NCBI GenBank assembly: GCA_037139415.1
Contig: JBAXGN010000020.1
Coordinates: 1 to 54,594, forward strand
DNA from: Verrucomicrobiota bacterium
GTDB taxonomy: Bacteria > Verrucomicrobiota > Verrucomicrobiia > Limisphaerales > Fontisphaeraceae
Reading direction: 5' to 3'
Length of the DNA: 54,594 nt
Within the stretch, counting starts at the first letter, position 1, and the number at the start of each line of letters is the position of its first letter. This document shows, piece after piece, positions 29,960 through 54,594 of this stretch. Made by a program: the position numbers and the translations under genes. Below the pieces are notes generated by a model that worked only from the letters and a program-made list of their open reading frames with translations, was not told the origin of the DNA and searched no databases.

Positions 29960-31102
29960 GTGACCGTTGCACCACACATGGAGACCTTGCGACAGTGGGC
30001 CAAAAGCCCGCTGGGCTTGGCCTTTATCCTTTCGATCCTGTTCCATTTGGTTTCGTTTGGCATCTATCGGGCAGGCAAAAAAATCCATTGGGACGGGCAG
30101 GATAAACTGCTGGCCATGCTCGTCCCCAAGCCGAGCAATACGGAAATGCCTTTGCTGAAACTATATCAGTCGCTGCTGTTTCCCCAGCCCGATCCCCGGC
30201 TGGCGCAACAGCGGCCCCCGCCACAGACGCCGCAGATGTTCATCTCCGTGGACCCCTTGCAGGCGACAGCGGAGGCTCCGAAAAACCCCAAATACTACTC
30301 CGCCCTGAACTCCCAGGCCGCCAACCCGGTGAAAAAAGCCAATTCCGACGAGGTGAATATAGACGGTCGCCAAAAAAACATGATGCAGGCGATTGATATT
30401 CCCGTGCCCGTCGTTTCCCCGGAATTGCGTCGCGCCGAGCCGCCGACCAAAGCCAGCCCCCAGAATCCCGAGCCACCCCAACCAAAGCCGGTTGAGAAAA
30501 CCGAACCCGAACAATTGCGGCCCGAATTGAAGCCCAAGCCCAAGGGTGGCGAAACGCCCGGGCAATTGGCGTTGGCCAAACCGGTGGATGTCGCCCGCCC
30601 GAACGACGGCCAGGCCCACACCGAGGATGGCAAGGATGACCGCGCCCAAAAGGCCACCCCGGACCGCAAACCCGTCCGTCCGCGCACCGTGGCGGAAGCC
30701 AAAGCGCATCTGGCGAACAACCAGATTGCCGGCGAACGCATTCAACAACCCGGCGGTGTGCCCAACTTTGGCATCGTCTCCTCGCTCGACGCCAAGGCCA
30801 CCCCGTTTGGAGCGTATGACGCCATCATCATTGCCGCCGTGCAACAGCGCTGGTGGAATTTGCTTGAGGACGCCCATTACTCCTTGGACCGCCATGGGCA
30901 TGTATCCGTTGACTTCACGCTGCATGCCGATGGCACGGTGCGCGCGGTCACGGAAGCGGAGAATACCACCGGCGTGCTCTGGGGTGCCATCTGCCAGCGG
31001 GCCATCAGCGAAGTCTCCCCGTTCAAGCCTTGGACGCAAGAGATGCTGCAATTCTACGGCACCAACCAGCGCCACGTCCGCTTTACTTTCTATTACTATT
31101 AG
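29960..31102 (+). CDS. TonB-like energy transducer
   Basis: 380 residues counted from a GTG at 29960; an ATG at 29978 (METLRQWAKSPLG) is an equally good start and no ribosome site decides. One membrane span (LAFILSILFHLVSFGIY) is followed by a long Pro/Lys/Glu-rich spacer (about 60-250: PQPDPRLAQQRPPPQTPQ, EPPQPKPVEKTEPEQ). The C-terminal ~90-residue domain (AAVQQRWWNLLEDAHYSLDRHG, VDFTLHADGTVRAV, VRFTFYYY) has the TonB C-terminal fold. It would link the inner-membrane proton force to outer-membrane receptors; no ExbB/ExbD or receptor gene is nearby. TolA is an alternative reading. It is divergent from gldA. Confidence 0.85.
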   Translation: MTVAPHMETLRQWAKSPLGLAFILSILFHLVSFGIYRAGKKIHWDGQDKLLAMLVPKPSNTEMPLLKLYQSLLFPQPDPRLAQQRPPPQTPQMFISVDPLQATAEAPKNPKYYSALNSQAANPVKKANSDEVNIDGRQKNMMQAIDIPVPVVSPELRRAEPPTKASPQNPEPPQPKPVEKTEPEQLRPELKPKPKGGETPGQLALAKPVDVARPNDGQAHTEDGKDDRAQKATPDRKPVRPRTVAEAKAHLANNQIAGERIQQPGGVPNFGIVSSLDAKATPFGAYDAIIIAAVQQRWWNLLEDAHYSLDRHGHVSVDFTLHADGTVRAVTEAENTTGVLWGAICQRAISEVSPFKPWTQEMLQFYGTNQRHVRFTFYYY

Positions 31103-31247
31103 CAGGTCCCGGTTCCTGACTGAGTCTCTCTTGCCCCCGCTGCCCGGCGAGAAAAACACTACGCATCGCCGTGTATCAACCAACCCGCAACTATGTAACG
31201 CGCTTTTTTCATCGCCAACCGCGCGGTTTCGGGGCAGAATCCCGCGC

Positions 31248-32207
31248 ATGAAAACCACGACGAAAGTATGGCTGGGCGCAGGCGCGGTGCTCGCTCTCGT
31301 CGTGGCGTTGATCGGCTACAAAATCAAGACTGCCGAACCCAGTTATCAGGGGAAGAGCTTGAGTGAGTGGTTGGGGGAATGTAACCCATACGAAGTTCCT
31401 TCGGTAGATGGTTCTTACCCCTCAACAAACAACGCATTTGCTTCAGCCATGCGAGCCATGGGCACCAATTCCTTGCCAATATTGATTGAATGGCTGCCCC
31501 CGAGGAATCCAACGGTGCAGAATTGGCTTATAAAAGCAAATAACAAACAAGATTTCATTCGCTTGCCAACTGGCTCCGACCCACGCACAAGCAGTTATCA
31601 AGCAGTTGCGGCAATAGCTGCCCTGGGACCATCCGCCAAACCAGCGATCCCGCAACTCGTCGAGTTGTTAAATCACACCAATGTCACAGTATATGCCACT
31701 GCTGCCTTGGTAGCCATTGGACCAGAGGCGCACCCAGTGATTTTGCAGGCATTGCGTCATACGAATAGCGCAGTCCGGGTGGCGGTCATTTGGGGGCTTG
31801 GGCAAATGCCGGGTGATAAAGAATTCGCTGTGCCCTCCCTGATCTCCCTGCTTAATGACAATGATACAGGGGTTCGTCGCCGTGCTGCTTTCCTGATAGG
31901 ATGCATCCAAAGGAAGCCGGAAATAACCATTCCTGCGCTGCTTAAAGCTTTTCCGGATCCTGATCCCCATGTAAGCAGCCATTTGGCATTTGCACTTAGC
32001 CGATTCGGCACCAACGCCGTCGCAGCCTTGCCAGCATTACGGCAACTCCAGGCGCAAACCAATCTGGATTTTATAGAACAATTTTATATAAAGAATGCTC
32101 TCAGAAAAATCTCCCCCTCCGAATATCCACCCGCCACCAATATCGTTCGGACTCGACGCGGTCGGACGGCGCAGCCAGCCCCAAAGACGGAACCGGCCCC
32201 GCAATAA
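31248..32207 (+). CDS. Membrane-anchored HEAT-repeat protein
   Basis: 319 residues from the ATG at 31248 (MKTTTKVWLGAGAVLALVVA). An N-terminal hydrophobic anchor (VWLGAGAVLALVVALIGY) puts the rest outside the cytoplasm. From about residue 110 the protein is HEAT-like helical repeats with conserved A-x-x-A-L-x-x-I-G/L-G and N/D-x-x-V-R-x-x-A spacing: AVAAIAALGPSAKPAIP, ATAALVAIGPEAHPVI, VRVAVIWGLGQMPGD, RRRAAFLIGCIQR and LAFALSRFGTNAVAALP. Repeats of this type bind partner proteins. The tail is Arg/Pro-rich. I do not recognise a named family. It lies 145 bp downstream of the TonB-like gene on the same strand. Confidence 0.8.
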   Translation: MKTTTKVWLGAGAVLALVVALIGYKIKTAEPSYQGKSLSEWLGECNPYEVPSVDGSYPSTNNAFASAMRAMGTNSLPILIEWLPPRNPTVQNWLIKANNKQDFIRLPTGSDPRTSSYQAVAAIAALGPSAKPAIPQLVELLNHTNVTVYATAALVAIGPEAHPVILQALRHTNSAVRVAVIWGLGQMPGDKEFAVPSLISLLNDNDTGVRRRAAFLIGCIQRKPEITIPALLKAFPDPDPHVSSHLAFALSRFGTNAVAALPALRQLQAQTNLDFIEQFYIKNALRKISPSEYPPATNIVRTRRGRTAQPAPKTEPAPQ

Positions 32208-32353: not shown

Positions 32354-32878
32354 GACGGGTCATTTTCAAAAAGGGCCGTCACGGAAACATTTCTTGACGC
32401 AAAAATTTCTTTCCGTGGCGGAAAAATTTCCTTTCCCGACGGAAATCTTTCGTTTCTCGACGCAGAAATTTGGTTTCTTGACGTAGAAAAATGATTCCTC
32501 GGCGGAAATATTTGGTTTCCCGACGTAGAAATTCCGTTCCTTGACGGAAGTTTTTGGTTTCCCGACGGAGAAATTTGGTTTTCCGACGTCAAGAAATGTT
32601 TCCGTGGCGTCAAGAAACCATTTCGTGACGCCATGAAAATCTCCAATGCCGTCACGGGGGTTTTCCTTGATGGAAGGGAAAGTCTCCGTGACGTCAGGGA
32701 ACGTTCCGTTGACGCCGGGGAGCGGCATTTTTGTGGCAGCGGCAGGTTCCGTGACGCCACGGCGGACCCTTTGGATGCCACGAGATTAAGCTTAGGCGGT
32801 CATCCGGGGTTCCCGGATCGCCACAAGCGTAAACCCGATCTCGGGCACTGAGGCAAGGGTGCCGAAGCACCCGCCCCA
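32354..32878. repeat. Phase-locked array of about 25 degenerate 21-bp units
   Basis: A start motif G-A/G/T-C/T-G or close variant falls at 32354 and every 21 bp after it (32375, 32396, 32417 and so on to 32858). The one shifted position, at 32735, is corrected at 32753, so the overall phase is kept. Units in the middle carry an A-tract and a T-tract (AAATTT, then TTTCC) and are most alike between 32396 and 32605; the rest drift to G/C-rich versions. 21 bp is two helical turns and also seven codons. The plus frame starting at the unit reads D-[AGV]-x-[IK]-x-F-[PLR] with one TGA (32492-32494), and two minus frames are open for 120 and 174 codons, so no frame is clearly coding. A 6-bp hairpin GGGTGC-CGAA-GCACCC overlaps the right end (32857-32872). 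No spacers as in CRISPR. Confidence 0.85.
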
Positions 32879-33064: not shown

Positions 33065-36000
33065 ATGTCCCGTTGTTTGCGGCAAATTGTCTATTTCATG
33101 CTGATCTGGATCGGATGTTCCGTCCAGGCGGATAACTTTTTCCCCACCAATTCGACTTGGCGATATTTCATTGGCACCACCGAGGCTTCCTCCCCCGTGG
33201 ATGCCTGGCGGCAGAACACGTACAACGACGCGAGTTGGAGCGAAGGCCAGGCGCCGATCGGGTATGGAGACCCGGGGATCGTCACAGGCGTGCCCACGAG
33301 CGAGAACGGCGGCTACGTGAGCATGTTTTTCCGAAAAAGTTTCAACGTACCCAACCCCACGGCGGTCAGCCGGCTGGATCTGGCAGTGCGGGTGGACGAC
33401 GGTTATGTGGCGTGGATCAACGGGGTGGAAGTGGGGCGCTACAACTTTTCCACAAACGCACCGGTGTACAACGCTACGGCCACAAATAACATTGAGCCGA
33501 CCTGGATTACGAATTCCATTACCACGAATGTGGCGGCGTATCTGGTCCCAGGCAATAATGTGATCGCCATCCAGGTGTTCAATTACAGTCAGCCAAGCGT
33601 GGATTTGTTATTTGATGCGCAGTTATCCACGCCGGGCAATGCGGCCTCCCCAGTGATCACGGATATTGCCCCGCCAGCCGATGCCATCCTCAACCAGTTG
33701 AGTCAGATCACGGTGACGTTCAGCGAGGGTGTGACGAATATTTTTCCGGCCAGTTTGCTGATCAACCAGGCCCCTGCCACAAATATGCTGCGCGTGGCCA
33801 GCAATCAGTTCACTTTTCAGTTTACCACGCCCGCCGCTGGGAACGTGGATATGACTTGGAACTTGACGACGAATATCACCGACCTAGCCAGCAATGCCTT
33901 CGCCGGTCTGACTTGGTCTTACTTGCTAGATTTCTCCGCGAGCTCGAATCAGCTCTATATCAATGAATTTCTAGCCGCGAACAAGAATTCCATCCGCGAC
34001 GAAGACGGGGATGCCTCGGATTGGATCGAGATTTTCAACGGCGGGGCGCTGACCGCCAACCTCACGGGCTGGGCGCTAACGGATGAGGCCACGAATCTGG
34101 TAAAGTGGCGCTTCCCAAATATCACACTCGCACCGCGCGCGTACCTAGTGGTGTACGCATCGGGGAAGAATCGCACGAATGCGAGCGCGAAATTGCACGC
34201 GAATTTCCAGTTGGATAAGGGGGGGGAATATCTGGCGTTGGTGGACCCGCAGACAAATGTGGTTTCGGATTTCGGGGGCGTGTATCCGCCGCAGAGCACC
34301 GACGTTTCGTATGGGCGCGTGCGCGGGGACTTGGCGCACTTCGGGTATTTTTCCATGCCGTCCCCCGGCGGGCCGAATATGTCCTCGGGCGGCGGGTTTA
34401 CGACGGACATTGTGTTTTCGCGCGGTAGCGGAACGTTTACGAACACCTTCCAGTTGACGCTGAACACGGCTGATACGAACGCGCAGATCCGCTTTGTGGT
34501 CGGCTCAACCTTGCCGACGGAGAGTTCGCCGCTGTATGCGGGGCCGATCACCGTCTCGAACACCACCGTGGTGCGGGCGCGCGCGTTCGCCGCCGGGTTG
34601 CTGCCCGGTGAAGTCAAGAGCCGCAGCTATATTCAGATGGAAACCGCCACGAATACCGCCGCGTTTAATACGGATGTGCCGATTGTGCTGCTGCACAGCT
34701 ACGGCGCGGGCGTGCTGCCCACCAACGGGGATTCTTTTGTCATCGTGCAGGTGTACGAACCGAAGAATGGCGTGGCGATGTTCACGAATGCGCCCGATCT
34801 AGCCATGCTCGGGATTTACCATGTGCGCGGGAAAAGCAGCTACTCGTTCCCGAAGCGGAACTTTTTCGTCGAGCTGCAGGATGAATACGGGGATGACAAA
34901 CATGTGTCATTTGCGGGGTTGCCGGATCAGTCCGATTGGGTGCTGTATTCCATTTATCAATTTGATCCCTCCATGATGCACAATCCCATGGCGCACGCTC
35001 TGTTCCGACAGATGGGACATTATTCCGCGAACACCAGCTTTGCGGAGCTATTTTTGCACATCGGTACCAACAACCCCGCGATTGCACCACTGACCTTCTC
35101 CAGCAACTATAACGGACTGTACGTCATCGAGGAGAAAATCAAAATTGGGAAAAATCGGGTGGAAATTGACAAGCTGCTGCCCGAGCAAACCAACGCGACG
35201 ACCATCACCGGCGGGTATTTATTCGACGTGGACGATCCGCCCACCACGTTTTCAGTCGCCGGGGTCAGCAATGTGCGATCCGTGGACCCCTCGCACATTG
35301 AGATGAACAGTGCCGAACGCACCGCCCAGAAGAATTACTTGAATAGTTACTGGACGGCCTTCAACACCGCCCTGAATGGGACCAACTGGCTCAACCCCAC
35401 CAACGGCTACCGCGCGTTTGTCGATACACCTTCCTGGATTGATTTTCATTTAAACAATTTTATCGTCTTCAATGTGGACGGACTGCGGCTGAGTTCGTAT
35501 TTTTACAAGCCGCGCGGCGACAAATTATACCAAGGGCCAATGTGGGACTTCGACCGCACCCAGGGTTCGACCGATCTGCGCGCCTATAATCCCCGGCTCT
35601 GGCGCAGCGGGTATTCGGATTGCGGCACGGATTTTTTCAGCAGCGGCAACACCTTTGGTAATGCGTGGTACAAGCGATTGTTTTTGGACCTCGACTTTTT
35701 CCAAGCGTGGATTGACCGCTACCATGACCTCCGCCGCGGCGCGTATTCCACCACAAATGTCTGGGCCATGATTGACAGCTTCGCCAATCAGGCCCGTAAC
35801 GGCCAGTCCCGCGACGTTGTCAAATGGACCATCAATAAACCGCGCTATGGAACCGTGAATCAGGTCGGGCTTTCCTATACTTTCCCCAATCCCGGCATGT
35901 ATCAGGGCGAGGTGGACTTCCTGAAATACTGGTACGCCAACCGCTTTGACTTCCTCGACAGTCAACTGGCGCGCCCCCCAGCCCTGAGCCGCGCGGGCGG

Positions 36001-39000
36001 ACCGATTACCAATTTGACTCTGACCGTGACAACGCAGGTTGGGCAGATTTATTACACGCTCAACGGCACGGACCCCCGCGCCTCCGGCGGCGCGATCAGC
36101 ACCAACGCCATCCTTTACACAAATGCCATCGTACTCACGAATAATGCTCGCGTTGTGGCCCGTACATACGACACCAATTACTATTACGTGTATCTCGGCA
36201 GTAACGCTCCCCCCACCAACAGCCCATGGTCCGGCACCGTGGAAGCGACCTACGTTGCACAAACCCCGCAATTCGTGGTAACGGAAATCATGTTTAATCC
36301 GGCAGCGCCGACGAATGGCAGCACAAATGACGCCAGCGCGTATGAATACATTGAGCTGAAAAATGTCGGCACGAACATGTTAACCCTGGCGGGCTTCCAC
36401 TTCACGAACGGGATTTACTTTGATTTCTCCACGGGCACCGTCAGCCAATTGGCCCCCGGCGGCTATGTGCTGCTGGTGCGCAATCGCAACGCGTTTCTCA
36501 GCCGTTATCCGGGCGTGACGAACATTGCCGGGGAATATTCCGGGAGTTTGAATAATAGCGGCGAACGGCTGTTCCTGGAAGGGCCGCTGAAAGAGCCGAT
36601 TCTGAATTTTAGCTATGATAATTCCTGGCAGGCGATGGCGGATGGCAACGGTTTTTCACTGGTGCTCAGCAATGAATATGCTCCGTTTTATTCCTTAACC
36701 AATCGCGCCAGTTGGCGCTTGAGCAGCACGGAGGGAGGTTCGCCCGGACAGGTGGACGCGGTCGTGCCGAGCATTAGCCCCATCCTAGTTAATGAACTGC
36801 TGTCCGCACCCCTGACCGGCGGGGTGGATACCGTGGAATTATATAACCCTAACGCCTCGGCGGTGGACATCAGCGGCTGGTATCTCTCGGATGCGTTTAA
36901 TAATCCCCGCAAGTACTGTTTTCCTGCCAGCAGCATTCTGCCAGCCAACGGCTACCTGGTGGTGAATGAGACCGCATTTAATGTGGGCAGCAACTCCTTT
37001 GCCTTTTCATCCAATGGCGACGATGTCTGGCTCTATGCCGGCAACACCAACCATTTGCTGGGCTATTATCACGGGTTTTCCTTTGGTAACTCCGAGCCCG
37101 GTGTGACCTTCGGGCGATATGTGACCAGCACGGGCGAAGAACAATTTGTGCCCCAAGCCACCGCGACACTGGGTACAAACAATACGGGCCCGCGTGTCGG
37201 CCCACTGGTGTTCACCGAGATCCATTATAATCCCACATTGCCGGGAGATGCCTACGTGGAAATCATGAATATCACGACCAATGTGGTCCCATTGTACGAC
37301 CCCGCTGCCCCTACCAACACCTGGAACGTGCATGGCCTGGATTTTTACTTCCCCACCAATGTTTCGCTAAATCCCGGCCAGACACTGCTGGTCACGGGAA
37401 CTAATGCCGCCACGTTTCAGACTGTGTATGGCGTGAACAGCAACACCCTGGTGTTCGGACCATTCGCTGGCGGTCTGCAAACCAACGGCGAAACCTTGAA
37501 GTTGGAACGTCCCGGAACACCCACGACTAACGATGTTCCCCATTACACGGTGGATGAGATCAACTACGATGTGGTCGCACCTTGGCCGGCCTACGCCACT
37601 AATGGGAGCAGTTCATTGCAACGAGTGAAGCCGGAAGCCTACGGCAATGATCCAATAGCCTGGAAACTGGCGACGATCTCTCCGGGGATGGCCCCGCCCG
37701 TATTGGTGCAATCCCCAATATCGCAAACCAGCAACGCAGCAAGCAATGTGAGTTTGAATGCCGTCGTGTTGGCACCGTTAGCCCCGCGTTATCAATGGTA
37801 TTTCAATTCCGCTCCGCTGACCAATGCCACTAACGCCACATTGAGCCTCGCCAACATTAGCTGCACCAACGACGGCCAGTATCTGGTGATCGCCACAAAC
37901 CCGGTTGGGGCCGTGACCAGTACCGTAGCCACATTGACCATTCCAGGTACCGCGCTGCCCAGCATTGTCACCTCCCCTCAATCACAAACGAATGACATGG
38001 GAAATACGGTCACACTCGCCATGGTGCCCTCTCTGTCTTGCAATCCACTTCGCTTCCAATGGCTCTTCAATAACAATCCCCTGGCTGGCGCCACCAATGC
38101 CTCGCTGGTGATAACGAATGTCCAACTGACCAACAGCGGCTCTTACTCCGTTATCATGAGTAATGTGGCGGGGAAAGCGACCAGCGCAATCGCGACGCTG
38201 ACCATTCTGTCGTTACCGGTTATCACGGGGCCTCCGGCCAATCAATCCGTTTACCCGGGCCAAAGCGCGAGTTTTGGTGTGACTGTCACAGGCTCACCCC
38301 CCTTGATGTATCAATGGTATGGCAAGGGCATCCTGCTGGCTGGAGAAACCAACACAACACTGCTTTTAAGTGATGTTCAGTGGGAGCAAAGTGGAAACTA
38401 TCAGGTGGTCGTGAGTAATACCTATGGCAGTGTCACCAGTGCGCCGGCAACGTTGACCGTTTGGATCGCCCCGGTAATTACCAGCCAACCGCAGAGCCGG
38501 ACCAATCTGGTGGGAACCACCGCCAGCTTTGCCGTAACTGCCAATGGTGCGCCTGATCAATGGTATCAGTGGTACAAATCCGTGACCAGTAACCAGTGGT
38601 CAGGCATCAATGGCGCGACCAATTCTCAATTATCAATTTCCAATTGCCAATTGAGTGACGCCGGTAGCTACTCAATGGTGGTCTCCAATGTCCTCGGTTC
38701 AGTAACCAGTGCAGTGGCGGTATTGACAGTGTGGCAGGCACCAGTGATCACCACCCAACCCCAGAACCAATCGAATCTCCTGAGCGCAACCGCCAGCTTT
38801 TCGGTTTCCGCATACGGTTCGCCCGAGCCATGGTATCAATGGCGGTTCAATGCCACCAATGTGCTGGCCAACCAAACCAACTCTACCTTGACCCAGACCA
38901 ACATCCAGACAACGAACGCCGGTAATTATTCGGTGGTGATCACCAACACGGCAGGCGTGGTAACCAGCGCCGTGGCGACACTGACAGTCCTGACTCCCCC

Positions 39001-40843
39001 AACCATCACCCAACAACCGGTGGGCACATCCGTCTATGCGGGACAAAGTGCCACCTTCACGGTAACCGCCATCAACCCGGCTCCGATTACCTACCAGTGG
39101 TTCGGCTTGGGCGCAGGGCTATCCGGACAAACCAACGCCATCCTGACCCTTACCAATGTGCAGGCCGCACAGGAAGGCGAATACTTTGCCCTGGCGGCCA
39201 ATGCGTATGGATCAGCCACCAGCAGCGTGGCCCTGTTGGCGTTGCGCATCCTGCCGCCTAGTTCGGCTCCCGGATATTTTTACTTTGCAAACAGCTCTGG
39301 TAGCCGCATCTTTCACCCCACCGACACGGCGGGCGGGGCGACAACAAACACTTCGTCACTTAAGAGTAATACCGTCCCCTTTGGCAATCTGCGAATATCG
39401 GTCTATTACGGTGTGGGTGGCGGACCGTTGCAAACCAACCTGAACGATGTGCGCGCCTGGAACTGGAACGGCTCGAATAGCGGCAATGCGGGGATTTCCG
39501 GCAACGCATTGCTGGCGGAAACGGGCAAGGGAATCATCGGGTTTGGCACTTTGTTTGGCGGGCAGTTTTCCGCTGGAAACACAACTCTTACCGCCTATCG
39601 CACAGATGCCGCCGCCACCTACCCGATGCAGGTGCGCGGCTGGGATTGCAACGCGGGCGGGGGAAGTCCGACTTGGGAATCGTTCCAGCAAAAGCTGACG
39701 GCGGGAACCTTGCCCATCGGCACGCTCTACGGACTTTCTCCGATCTTTAACCAGACGGCAAATGCGTCCACGTCATTGTCAATGCCGTATTGGCAATTGA
39801 CGACGGTGATGGCACGTTCACCCGTAATTGCCATCCAACCGCTGAGCCAGACTAACCTGATGGGAACGACGGCAAACTTTAGTGTGTCGGCGACCGGCAA
39901 TCCGGCACCCTGGTATCAGTGGTACAAATCAGTGGTCAGTAACCAGTGGTCCGTCATCAGTGGCGCGACCAATTATCAATGGTCCATTTCCAATTGTCAG
40001 TTGAGTGACGCTGGCAGTTACACGGTTGTCATTACCAATGTAGCCGGCTCCGTGACCAGTGCTGTGACGGCCTTGACTGTCCTGGGTTCGCCACAGATTA
40101 CCGCCTTAACCTCAACCAACCAGACCGTGCTCTGGGGCAGCAACGCGGTGTTCACGGTTTCCGCCTCCGGTTCCACGCCACTCTATTATTACTGGTATCT
40201 TAACTCGAACTTTGCTTCGGTGGTCAGCGCGCAAGTGAGCGTGACCAATCCGGCGGTGAGTTGCGGCAACCAAGGGGATTACTATAATGTCGTGGTCAGC
40301 AATGCGTATGGCACCGCCATCGCTGGGCCCGCCTATCTCGGCGTCATGGACAGCCGGTTGCCGGCCTTCACCCCGGCCTTGGTGCATGTCACCAACACCG
40401 TGGACAAAGGTTCCAATGCGACCCTGACTGTGGGGGTATTGCACACCTGCAATGAGGCGTATCGCTGGTATTTCGGCCCCGATTTGTTGCCGACGCAGAC
40501 AACCCCGACCTTATCCCTGACCAATGTGGGGCTGAGTCAGGCGGGCACCTACTCGCTGGCGCTGTCCAATGCCAACGGAACTGCTTTGGGTACCGCCATG
40601 ACGCTGGTCGTGCATTACACCGTGACGAAGCCCACCATCAAGGTGGAGGAGAACAAGTTCACGCTGGCGGTGGAGGCCGAGCCGGGCCGGGCCTATTGGC
40701 TGGAGGTGCGCGATTCGTTGTCTTCCGGTACTTGGACCGTCATTCGCGGGGTAACCAATACCAGTGGTTCCACGCAGCTTTTGGATACCAATGCGGCCGC
40801 CCAGCATCGCTTCTACCGAATCGGTAGCGCTTTGCTTCCATAA
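33065..40843 (+). CDS. Giant secreted CotH/lamin-tail/Ig-repeat protein
   Basis: 2592 residues. A signal peptide (QIVYFMLIWIGCSVQADNFF) opens it. Domains in order, by eye: a sugar-binding-like N-terminal part (about 30-190); an Ig-like part (195-290); lamin-tail domain 1 (297-430); a chitobiase-like domain (450-540); a CotH kinase-like domain (about 536-930, with GKSSYSFPKRNFFVEL and PRGDKLYQGPMWDFDRTQGS); a second chitobiase-like domain (970-1060); lamin-tail domains 2-4 (about 1070-1540); six Ig-like repeats (about 1543-2060); an unclassified insert (about 2062-2249); two or three more Ig-like repeats; and a C-terminal domain (about 2520-2592) ending QHRFYRIGSALLP. CotH kinases phosphorylate secreted or spore proteins in other bacteria; activity here is inference. 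No PEP-CTERM or sortase tail. It stands alone downstream of the 21-bp array. Confidence 0.9.
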   Translation: MSRCLRQIVYFMLIWIGCSVQADNFFPTNSTWRYFIGTTEASSPVDAWRQNTYNDASWSEGQAPIGYGDPGIVTGVPTSENGGYVSMFFRKSFNVPNPTAVSRLDLAVRVDDGYVAWINGVEVGRYNFSTNAPVYNATATNNIEPTWITNSITTNVAAYLVPGNNVIAIQVFNYSQPSVDLLFDAQLSTPGNAASPVITDIAPPADAILNQLSQITVTFSEGVTNIFPASLLINQAPATNMLRVASNQFTFQFTTPAAGNVDMTWNLTTNITDLASNAFAGLTWSYLLDFSASSNQLYINEFLAANKNSIRDEDGDASDWIEIFNGGALTANLTGWALTDEATNLVKWRFPNITLAPRAYLVVYASGKNRTNASAKLHANFQLDKGGEYLALVDPQTNVVSDFGGVYPPQSTDVSYGRVRGDLAHFGYFSMPSPGGPNMSSGGGFTTDIVFSRGSGTFTNTFQLTLNTADTNAQIRFVVGSTLPTESSPLYAGPITVSNTTVVRARAFAAGLLPGEVKSRSYIQMETATNTAAFNTDVPIVLLHSYGAGVLPTNGDSFVIVQVYEPKNGVAMFTNAPDLAMLGIYHVRGKSSYSFPKRNFFVELQDEYGDDKHVSFAGLPDQSDWVLYSIYQFDPSMMHNPMAHALFRQMGHYSANTSFAELFLHIGTNNPAIAPLTFSSNYNGLYVIEEKIKIGKNRVEIDKLLPEQTNATTITGGYLFDVDDPPTTFSVAGVSNVRSVDPSHIEMNSAERTAQKNYLNSYWTAFNTALNGTNWLNPTNGYRAFVDTPSWIDFHLNNFIVFNVDGLRLSSYFYKPRGDKLYQGPMWDFDRTQGSTDLRAYNPRLWRSGYSDCGTDFFSSGNTFGNAWYKRLFLDLDFFQAWIDRYHDLRRGAYSTTNVWAMIDSFANQARNGQSRDVVKWTINKPRYGTVNQVGLSYTFPNPGMYQGEVDFLKYWYANRFDFLDSQLARPPALSRAGGPITNLTLTVTTQVGQIYYTLNGTDPRASGGAISTNAILYTNAIVLTNNARVVARTYDTNYYYVYLGSNAPPTNSPWSGTVEATYVAQTPQFVVTEIMFNPAAPTNGSTNDASAYEYIELKNVGTNMLTLAGFHFTNGIYFDFSTGTVSQLAPGGYVLLVRNRNAFLSRYPGVTNIAGEYSGSLNNSGERLFLEGPLKEPILNFSYDNSWQAMADGNGFSLVLSNEYAPFYSLTNRASWRLSSTEGGSPGQVDAVVPSISPILVNELLSAPLTGGVDTVELYNPNASAVDISGWYLSDAFNNPRKYCFPASSILPANGYLVVNETAFNVGSNSFAFSSNGDDVWLYAGNTNHLLGYYHGFSFGNSEPGVTFGRYVTSTGEEQFVPQATATLGTNNTGPRVGPLVFTEIHYNPTLPGDAYVEIMNITTNVVPLYDPAAPTNTWNVHGLDFYFPTNVSLNPGQTLLVTGTNAATFQTVYGVNSNTLVFGPFAGGLQTNGETLKLERPGTPTTNDVPHYTVDEINYDVVAPWPAYATNGSSSLQRVKPEAYGNDPIAWKLATISPGMAPPVLVQSPISQTSNAASNVSLNAVVLAPLAPRYQWYFNSAPLTNATNATLSLANISCTNDGQYLVIATNPVGAVTSTVATLTIPGTALPSIVTSPQSQTNDMGNTVTLAMVPSLSCNPLRFQWLFNNNPLAGATNASLVITNVQLTNSGSYSVIMSNVAGKATSAIATLTILSLPVITGPPANQSVYPGQSASFGVTVTGSPPLMYQWYGKGILLAGETNTTLLLSDVQWEQSGNYQVVVSNTYGSVTSAPATLTVWIAPVITSQPQSRTNLVGTTASFAVTANGAPDQWYQWYKSVTSNQWSGINGATNSQLSISNCQLSDAGSYSMVVSNVLGSVTSAVAVLTVWQAPVITTQPQNQSNLLSATASFSVSAYGSPEPWYQWRFNATNVLANQTNSTLTQTNIQTTNAGNYSVVITNTAGVVTSAVATLTVLTPPTITQQPVGTSVYAGQSATFTVTAINPAPITYQWFGLGAGLSGQTNAILTLTNVQAAQEGEYFALAANAYGSATSSVALLALRILPPSSAPGYFYFANSSGSRIFHPTDTAGGATTNTSSLKSNTVPFGNLRISVYYGVGGGPLQTNLNDVRAWNWNGSNSGNAGISGNALLAETGKGIIGFGTLFGGQFSAGNTTLTAYRTDAAATYPMQVRGWDCNAGGGSPTWESFQQKLTAGTLPIGTLYGLSPIFNQTANASTSLSMPYWQLTTVMARSPVIAIQPLSQTNLMGTTANFSVSATGNPAPWYQWYKSVVSNQWSVISGATNYQWSISNCQLSDAGSYTVVITNVAGSVTSAVTALTVLGSPQITALTSTNQTVLWGSNAVFTVSASGSTPLYYYWYLNSNFASVVSAQVSVTNPAVSCGNQGDYYNVVVSNAYGTAIAGPAYLGVMDSRLPAFTPALVHVTNTVDKGSNATLTVGVLHTCNEAYRWYFGPDLLPTQTTPTLSLTNVGLSQAGTYSLALSNANGTALGTAMTLVVHYTVTKPTIKVEENKFTLAVEAEPGRAYWLEVRDSLSSGTWTVIRGVTNTSGSTQLLDTNAAAQHRFYRIGSALLP

Positions 40844-53982: not shown

Positions 53983-54344
53983 ACGTTGCGGTCAGTAAAC
54001 CACAACCGCCAATCGAATGAGAATAAAAAAAACACGGGATTCAGCTTGAAAGCCGAAGTCGGAACAGGCGGTCCGCGAATGGGAAAAGGAACAACGTTTG
54101 CAGAAATATACACCAGCAGAAACAGATAACCGAAGCAGATCGGAACTTGGATTCGGGAGTTGGAATGGCAGGTCCAAAAGCAGTCCAAAATTTCACCGCC
54201 GGGGTGCGCTGGGCTATCGGACGCCTTTCCGGAGGTCCTGCCCCGTTCCCCTCATGACCACTCCGGCGAAATTCTGCCAATCCCGTTCGGGATTGGAACC
54301 CCAAACCCAGCAATCCTGAAAATCGTTGCGGCAAGGGGAGTGGC
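53983..54344. other. Upstream region of fabD, no gene recognised
   Basis: No convincing coding frame. The stretch contains the long palindrome at 54277-54296 described separately. A promoter for fabD is expected near 53990-54050 (A-rich tract AATAAAAAAAAC at about 54020-54031), but no clear -35/-10 pair was identified. Confidence 0.4.
54277..54296. repeat. Perfect 20-bp palindrome
   Basis: CCAATCCCG, TT, CGGGATTGG: nine-base arms with a two-base centre. It sits between the fabD upstream region and the 42-bp array. No flanking T-run follows, so it does not look like a terminator; a REP-like unit or operator is possible. Confidence 0.6.
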
Positions 54345-54546
54345 GGAACGTTTGGAAGGCCACTGCTGATTTTTACAGTGCCTTTCGGAACCTTTGGAAG
54401 GCCACTGCCGATTTTTACAGTGCCTTTCGGAACCTTTGGAAGGCCACTGCTGATTTTGACAGTGCCTTTCGGAACCTTTGGAAGGCCACTGCTGATTTTA
54501 ACAGTGCCATTCGGAACCTTTGGAAAGCCACCTGGGATTTTCCTAG
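54345..54546. repeat. Tandem array of 42-bp units
   Basis: Units start at 54345, 54387, 54429, 54471 and 54513 (the last is partial), each 42 bp. The unit opens GGAACCTTTGGAAGGCCACT, then contains a CACTG ... CAGTG inverted repeat with a T-rich loop, and ends CCTTTC. Units differ by a few substitutions. 42 is twice 21, the unit length of the other array in this window. The plus frame is open with a 14-residue repeat (G-T-F-G-R-P-L-L-I-L-T-V-P-F), but it has no other coding sign. Confidence 0.85.
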
Positions 54547-54594
54547 CAGCCTGTCGGACTTAACAATGCGGATTTTTTGCAGGTTTTTGAATAA
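54538..54594. mobile_element. Possible insertion-sequence end (tentative)
   Basis: CTAGCAGCCTGTCGGACTTA followed by a T-rich stretch looks like the terminal repeat (AGTCCGACAGGCTGCTAG on the other strand) seen at ends of transposable elements in this kind of genome. It immediately follows the last partial 42-bp unit, and the window ends before any transposase could appear. Recognition is from memory of the motif only. Confidence 0.2.

Follow-up and report, generated by a model that had tools for sequence, protein, structure and literature searches.

The DNA studied here, in the following referred to as the window, is a stretch of 54,594 nucleotides that corresponds to the entire contig C20 from a verrucomicrobial genome of 7.9 Mb in 378 contigs. 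It contains an array of phased 21-bp repeats, termed array A, that is preceded by a gene for a HEAT-repeat protein ending 168 bp before it and followed, 292 bp downstream, by the start of a gene for a giant protein of the CotH/LTD/Ig type. The latter distance is comparable to the one usually found between such arrays and their genes. The following features are relevant:

30546..32207, plus strand: gene for a HEAT-repeat protein (ORF list; Pfam HEAT_2, E 5e-20).
32354..32374, unstranded: diverged edge unit, in phase (GACG start) and of weak similarity.
32375..32773, unstranded: core of the phased 21-bp array, 19 dyad-symmetric units of approximately GACGTCAAGAAATGTTTCCGT (lag-21 autocorrelation, Tandem Repeats Finder, unit table and column counts).
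32774..32878, unstranded: non-periodic spacer, counted as units in a first-pass annotation of the sequence (lag-21 identity at chance in 32760-32878).
33065..40843, plus strand: gene for a giant secreted-type protein of 2592 aa with LTD, CotH kinase, Fn3_assoc and Ig domains (ORF list, Pfam).
54344..54531, unstranded: second array of two-turn multiples, 4.5 copies of a 42-bp unit (Tandem Repeats Finder).

Over positions 32354-32878, identity at lag 21 amounted to 0.506 as compared to 0.250 (sd 0.019) in dinucleotide shuffles (z 13.6), with z values of 12.5 and 13.2 at lags 42 and 63 and of only about 3 at lags 20 and 22. Tandem Repeats Finder reported periods of 21, 42 and 63 bp for 32396-32589. 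The 21-bp periodicity described for this span in the first-pass annotation was therefore borne out, and indels are absent. The same annotation had counted about 25 units, of which the last four or five do not exist: the signal ends near 32773, lag-21 identity in 32760-32878 is at background (0.286 vs. 0.261, z 0.6), and the periodic part, from about 32354/32375 to about 32773, comprises some 400 bp or 19-20 units. These are arranged head to tail and resemble each other above chance. The units of array A are not free in sequence. Column counts revealed that positions 1, 3 and 4 (G-C-G) are almost invariant and that positions 16-19 (TTTC/TTCC) are well conserved, with a variable middle part, and column permutation indicated dyad symmetry (p 0.012).

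Array A is predicted to bend by 65 degrees per 105 bp as compared to 36 degrees in shuffles (z 3.6; wedge-model parameters for comparative use only), in agreement with the intrinsic curvature proposed earlier and with the possibility that curved DNA organizes a promoter or the nucleoid without any sequence-specific partner. However, measured against period-preserving controls with permuted columns, array A is no more bent than expected from its period (z about 1; mean z of all arrays 0.5), and eight out of 48 arrays, including the sister arrays with a similar unit on C264 and C104/C40, are predicted to lie more than 1 sd below their shuffles. The proposed curvature did not withstand this comparison, and we regard a role based on bending as very improbable.

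A sequence-only model of three units, run on the contigs of the genome, retrieved no more than a few loci in 7.9 Mb; further arrays of this unit class were present on C41 and at the ends of C264 and C104. The C104 array continues at the start of C40 (55-bp overlap) and thus represents a single array split by the assembly. The other side of the C264 array was looked for and not located; just as array A, it has no known family gene beside it. Located 120 bp downstream of the C41 array is a gene whose 248-aa product carries an fn3 domain at its C-terminus; 13 additional paralogues of this protein are encoded in the genome, where a profile gave 26 matches. Most of these paralogues adjoin a period-21 array with a unit sequence of its own, e.g., CAGACAAGACCTTGTCCGTTG (C90), CCATTCCTGTCAAGTTTACCC (C31) and CAGAACACAGGATAGATATTC (C139). 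Numerous copies of such arrays exist in one genome, each linked to one member of a protein family. In several cases the contig breaks off within a few hundred bases of the family gene, the array forming its very end, and arrays account for some of the assembly breaks in these genomes. With regard to array A, the first-pass annotation was correct in placing a giant secreted protein downstream (33065-40843), but this is not the typical linkage, as the usual neighbor is a small fn3-domain protein. The window contains no fn3-family gene, and no remnant of one was found beside array A. The best reading is that array A constitutes an orphan copy now located upstream of the giant CotH/Ig gene; it may act as a regulator of this gene or may be a relic.

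The linked proteins comprise about 205-250 aa and combine a new helical domain with an fn3 domain. AlphaFold2 modeled a 246-aa member with a pLDDT of 89 as an N-terminal part of about 40 aa, mostly of low confidence and containing a W-rich motif, a helical domain (residues 46-138) and a beta domain, for which all PDB matches are fn3. The helical domain alone (pLDDT 87) yielded no significant fold match in the PDB (best E 0.85), no helix-turn-helix was recognized in the linked protein, and Pfam and NCBIfam assigned no family beyond fn3. Profile matches are present in 28 of 58 relatives, many of them only fn3 domains of large proteins (including those in two genomes of the same family), and the stand-alone gene is distributed patchily across the relatives. 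An origin from phages or plasmids was rejected: no phage in the collection searched carries the linked protein, plasmid matches are restricted to generic fn3, and viral contigs contain neither a relative nor a match to the consensus array unit.

A direct DNA search for the array unit in 96 relatives gave no matches as the units diverge too fast, and the fn3-family gene was therefore used as an anchor for finding further loci. At 22 loci, the sequence preceding the family genes (17.3 kb in total) contained 20 lag-21 arrays as compared to none in the remaining 271 kb, and a single weak array turned up in 400 kb drawn from different regions of the genome containing the window. A subfamily profile retrieved 59 loci from a separate collection, almost all of them in metagenome-assembled genomes of Verrucomicrobiota; three are titled gp5 Acidobacteria and single loci carry other names (one a Klebsiella-labeled bin), which may reflect misbinning. 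Among the 54 named loci with more than 300 bp of upstream sequence, 36 exhibited their best upstream periodicity at 20, 21, 41, 42, 62 or 63 bp, as compared to lags of 21, 42 or 63 bp in three out of 53 downstream controls. Twelve of the 54 are devoid of periodicity and six feature repeats of the 7-, 8- or 14-bp type, some of them in loci that also have a 21-bp array. About a third of the tested loci have no detectable array; the data mostly consist of metagenome-assembled drafts, with arrays cut off at contig ends. In a sample of the phylum, the gene was encoded in six of 289 genomes (E<=1e-15), and 21-bp-type arrays occurred at seven out of 13 usable loci, one of these 13 being apparently identical to L148, with a 22/44-bp array at one locus. 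The median distance from array end to gene match is 172 bp. No papers on 21-bp arrays together with fn3 genes in Verrucomicrobiota were found in the open-access literature (most subscription papers lie outside it), and this widespread set of arrays is apparently undescribed.

Step lengths between units were determined with leave-one-out unit profiles. Exactly 21 bp separate the units in 479 of 536 cases, followed by 20 bp (25 cases), 22 bp (12), 18 bp (2) and 24 bp (1); selection of the arrays by lag-21 identity favors 21 in this histogram and does not penalize 18 and 24 relative to 20 and 22. Frequent phase-breaking indels in homologous loci, an eventuality considered in the first-pass annotation, were accordingly not found. 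Given that 21 bp equal seven codons, the arrays might encode heptad-repeat peptides, all the more so as several are open in at least one frame, KTLSVTD-like heptads are found at C41 and one array is fused in frame at L159. In array A itself, a single TGA interrupts the plus frame, and two of the minus frames are open, exactly as described earlier. Nevertheless, the whole-codon steps of 18 and 24 bp are rarer than those of 20 and 22 bp. In addition, a period of 41 bp, i.e., about four helical turns and not a multiple of three, prevails in L173 and L175 and is present more weakly in G026, C151 and C60. All six frames are interrupted by stops in nine of the 56 arrays, and the dN/dS signature of coding that had been envisaged for one frame is absent: pooled pN/pS is 0.91-0.96 in all six frames and no array falls below 0.5 in any frame. 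The coding explanation is thus largely refuted and we grant it hardly any chance.

A dyad-symmetric unit is present in 40 of the 56 arrays at p<0.05 and in 31 at p<0.01 (column permutation), a significant dyad being missing from the other 16. In a 21-bp unit, two dyad axes necessarily alternate 10.5 bp apart, which amounts to half-sites of alternating orientation once per turn. Palindromic units upstream of a gene may be transcribed, and the arrays could then act as RNA, with the leader forming a row of small hairpins that controls the downstream message; single arrays do look compensatory. However, the two halves of a unit covary scarcely more than halves taken from different units do (112 axes: mean z 0.23, 13 above 2 and nine below -2), pairing of stem positions extends to the second axis, at a distance of 10.5 bp, which is the behavior expected of DNA half-sites, and the window is devoid of Rfam matches at the gathering threshold. 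As compensation within units is weak, a consensus dyad read as DNA fits better than conserved hairpins, and we deem the RNA explanation improbable.

The sequence of the unit differs between gene subfamilies and is conserved within them. The more alike the linked proteins, the more alike are the units (Mantel r 0.60; p 0.001, the minimum for 1000 permutations), and the share of unit pairs with z above 3 rises from 7% below 25% protein identity to 89% at 65-80%. For one subfamily the consensus unit is TTGTCCGtcaCGGACAA plus 4 bp (also given as TTGTCCGTCACGGACAA plus 4 bp and as AACCTTGTCCGTCACGGACAA), and the consensus TTGTCCG-N3-CGGACAA is retained at 50-65% protein identity, a degree of divergence at which intergenic DNA free of constraint should presumably have become random. 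Hence, either the sequence of the unit is also constrained or it has been inherited via homogenization. The earlier proposal that selection acts on spacing rather than on sequence consequently stands in its first half, as distant verrucomicrobial arrays with unrelated units hold 21 bp, and is too strong in its second, as a palindromic unit is kept across species within a gene subfamily.

Array length varies from five to 23 units between paralogues, and homogeneous cores are bordered by diverged edges. In the close paralogues L152 and L155, the gene-proximal edge of the array is common to both and the core units are different, a pattern expected from the spread of a new unit within the core. 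The loci on C90 and C58 were copied recently: homology spans array and gene, and the main alignment stops at the stop codon. All of this would also suit a self-perpetuating, functionless satellite, in which entire 21-bp units are duplicated through slippage or unequal exchange, cores are swapped between close paralogues with flanks still alike, and the link with fn3 genes is hitch-hiking in a two-part mobile module. The patchy occurrence in the phylum, with large expansions in a few genomes, points in the same direction. On the other hand, periods should drift to 19, 20, 22 or 23 bp without selection, whereas 21 (or 41/42) bp are kept even between arrays without detectable sequence similarity, and the neutral case predicts neither dyad symmetry nor a subfamily consensus kept across families. 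We therefore view the satellite explanation as rather unlikely, albeit worth serious consideration.

Taken together, spacing and symmetry suggest that the arrays are tandem operators for a putative homodimer, in which a dimer would occupy the same face of the DNA every two helical turns and which evolve in concert; we assign this reading a probability of roughly one half. A homodimeric DNA-binding protein would bind cooperatively along the array just upstream of the promoter, the bound dimers would set the expression of the following gene, and the number of units might tune the response. The usual two-part module consists of the array, a leader of about 100-260 bp and the gene for the small helical plus fn3 protein. 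New unit variants would spread through the array by unequal exchange or slippage, such that the unit sequence turns over and selection keeps spacing and symmetry. More tentatively, and on balance doubtfully, each array might be recognized by a factor that is inherited together with its gene, possibly the helical plus fn3 protein itself. Such an autoregulatory pair would diversify, by co-evolution of protein and DNA sites, into many private specificities under fixed helical spacing. If the operator reading is true, the arrays provide a series of natural experiments on what a regulatory array needs, with the same spacing and symmetry in different sequences, and would allow a direct test of spacing vs. 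sequence in cooperative DNA binding as well as of the co-evolution of a protein family with its sites.

Plasmid iterons likewise are direct repeats in tandem, about two helical turns in length and bound cooperatively by a protein. Unlike them, the module described here lacks a replication initiator gene, containing the helical plus fn3 gene instead, and is present in many copies per chromosome with units that vary by locus. In partition centromeres of the parC/parS type, phased repeats nucleate a protein filament; par genes were not recognized beside the arrays studied here, which in addition occupy a dozen or more loci per genome. CRISPR arrays were rejected since the units follow each other directly head to tail without unique spacers, and REP/BIME palindromes since units are array-specific, form long tandem rows and occur at a handful of loci in 7.9 Mb. 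The closest parallel to predicted binding of this kind is offered by promoters of Bordetella, where phosphorylated BvgA binds weak, degenerate sites as head-to-head dimers every 22 bp, i.e., every two turns, on one face (PMC7250471). Dimer sites two turns apart upstream of a promoter, with strict spacing and tolerance for degenerate sequence, are the shared traits (PMC7250471): the two-turn spacing is found here, and inverted half-sites are found in 40 of the 56 arrays. The BvgA system differs by its 22-bp spacing, by six sites at the described promoter as compared to six to 23 units, and by one regulator with one consensus and no coupling to fn3 genes; its sites are not known to be homogenizing repeats. 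With prokaryotic satellites and VNTRs, the arrays share tandem units, variable copy number and concerted evolution (PMC6749651), both VNTR hallmarks being present; they are set apart by the fixed 21-bp period, by dyads across unrelated sequences and by a fixed site upstream of one gene family. The intergenic heptamer repeats of Beggiatoaceae are likewise short tandem repeats between genes at many loci per genome with a proposed regulatory role; they consist, however, of a single 7-bp sequence in all loci and have neither a dyad nor a two-turn period (PMC4679880).

A number of individual loci deviate from the general pattern. L208, one of the G331 loci, features a palindrome array of 22/44 bp (CTCGAGTATCGCGTTACTCGAC) and not of 21/42 bp. 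Perfect repeats of 7 bp (CGCGGTT, ACCGCTC) or of the 8-bp type are situated upstream or in place of the 21-bp array in L141, L149, L135, L136, L159 and L190. The in-frame fusion in L159 (2390-2923) joins the array to a truncated fn3 gene (MTDKPLSGAEKTFSVIDKPLSVANKPF...) and possibly arose by array-gene recombination. At C58 (L116, 9953-10730), about 690 bp with an ORF for 223 aa, whose C-terminus resembles a PEP-CTERM signal, are inserted after the fn3 gene, and the last 45 bp of this gene are duplicated on the far side of the insertion. Neighboring genes are unrelated between loci, save a collagen-like gene at several loci of the genome containing the window; in L027, L120, L121, L134 and L059, a small collagen-like (GPP-repeat) gene or homologous DNA is located near the fn3-type gene.

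The 42-bp array at 54344..54531 may belong to the same class as the 21-bp arrays, the evidence being weaker than for array A; in this genome, related 42-bp repeats are also found on C104 and C176. Within window 54344-54594, the roughly 53 bp that follow this array at the contig end recur at or near the ends of many other contigs of the genome and are probably the terminus of a mobile element. At the opposite end of the window, positions 1-900 contain long diverged direct repeats of roughly 520 bp each, which apparently encode a repetitive protein on the minus strand.
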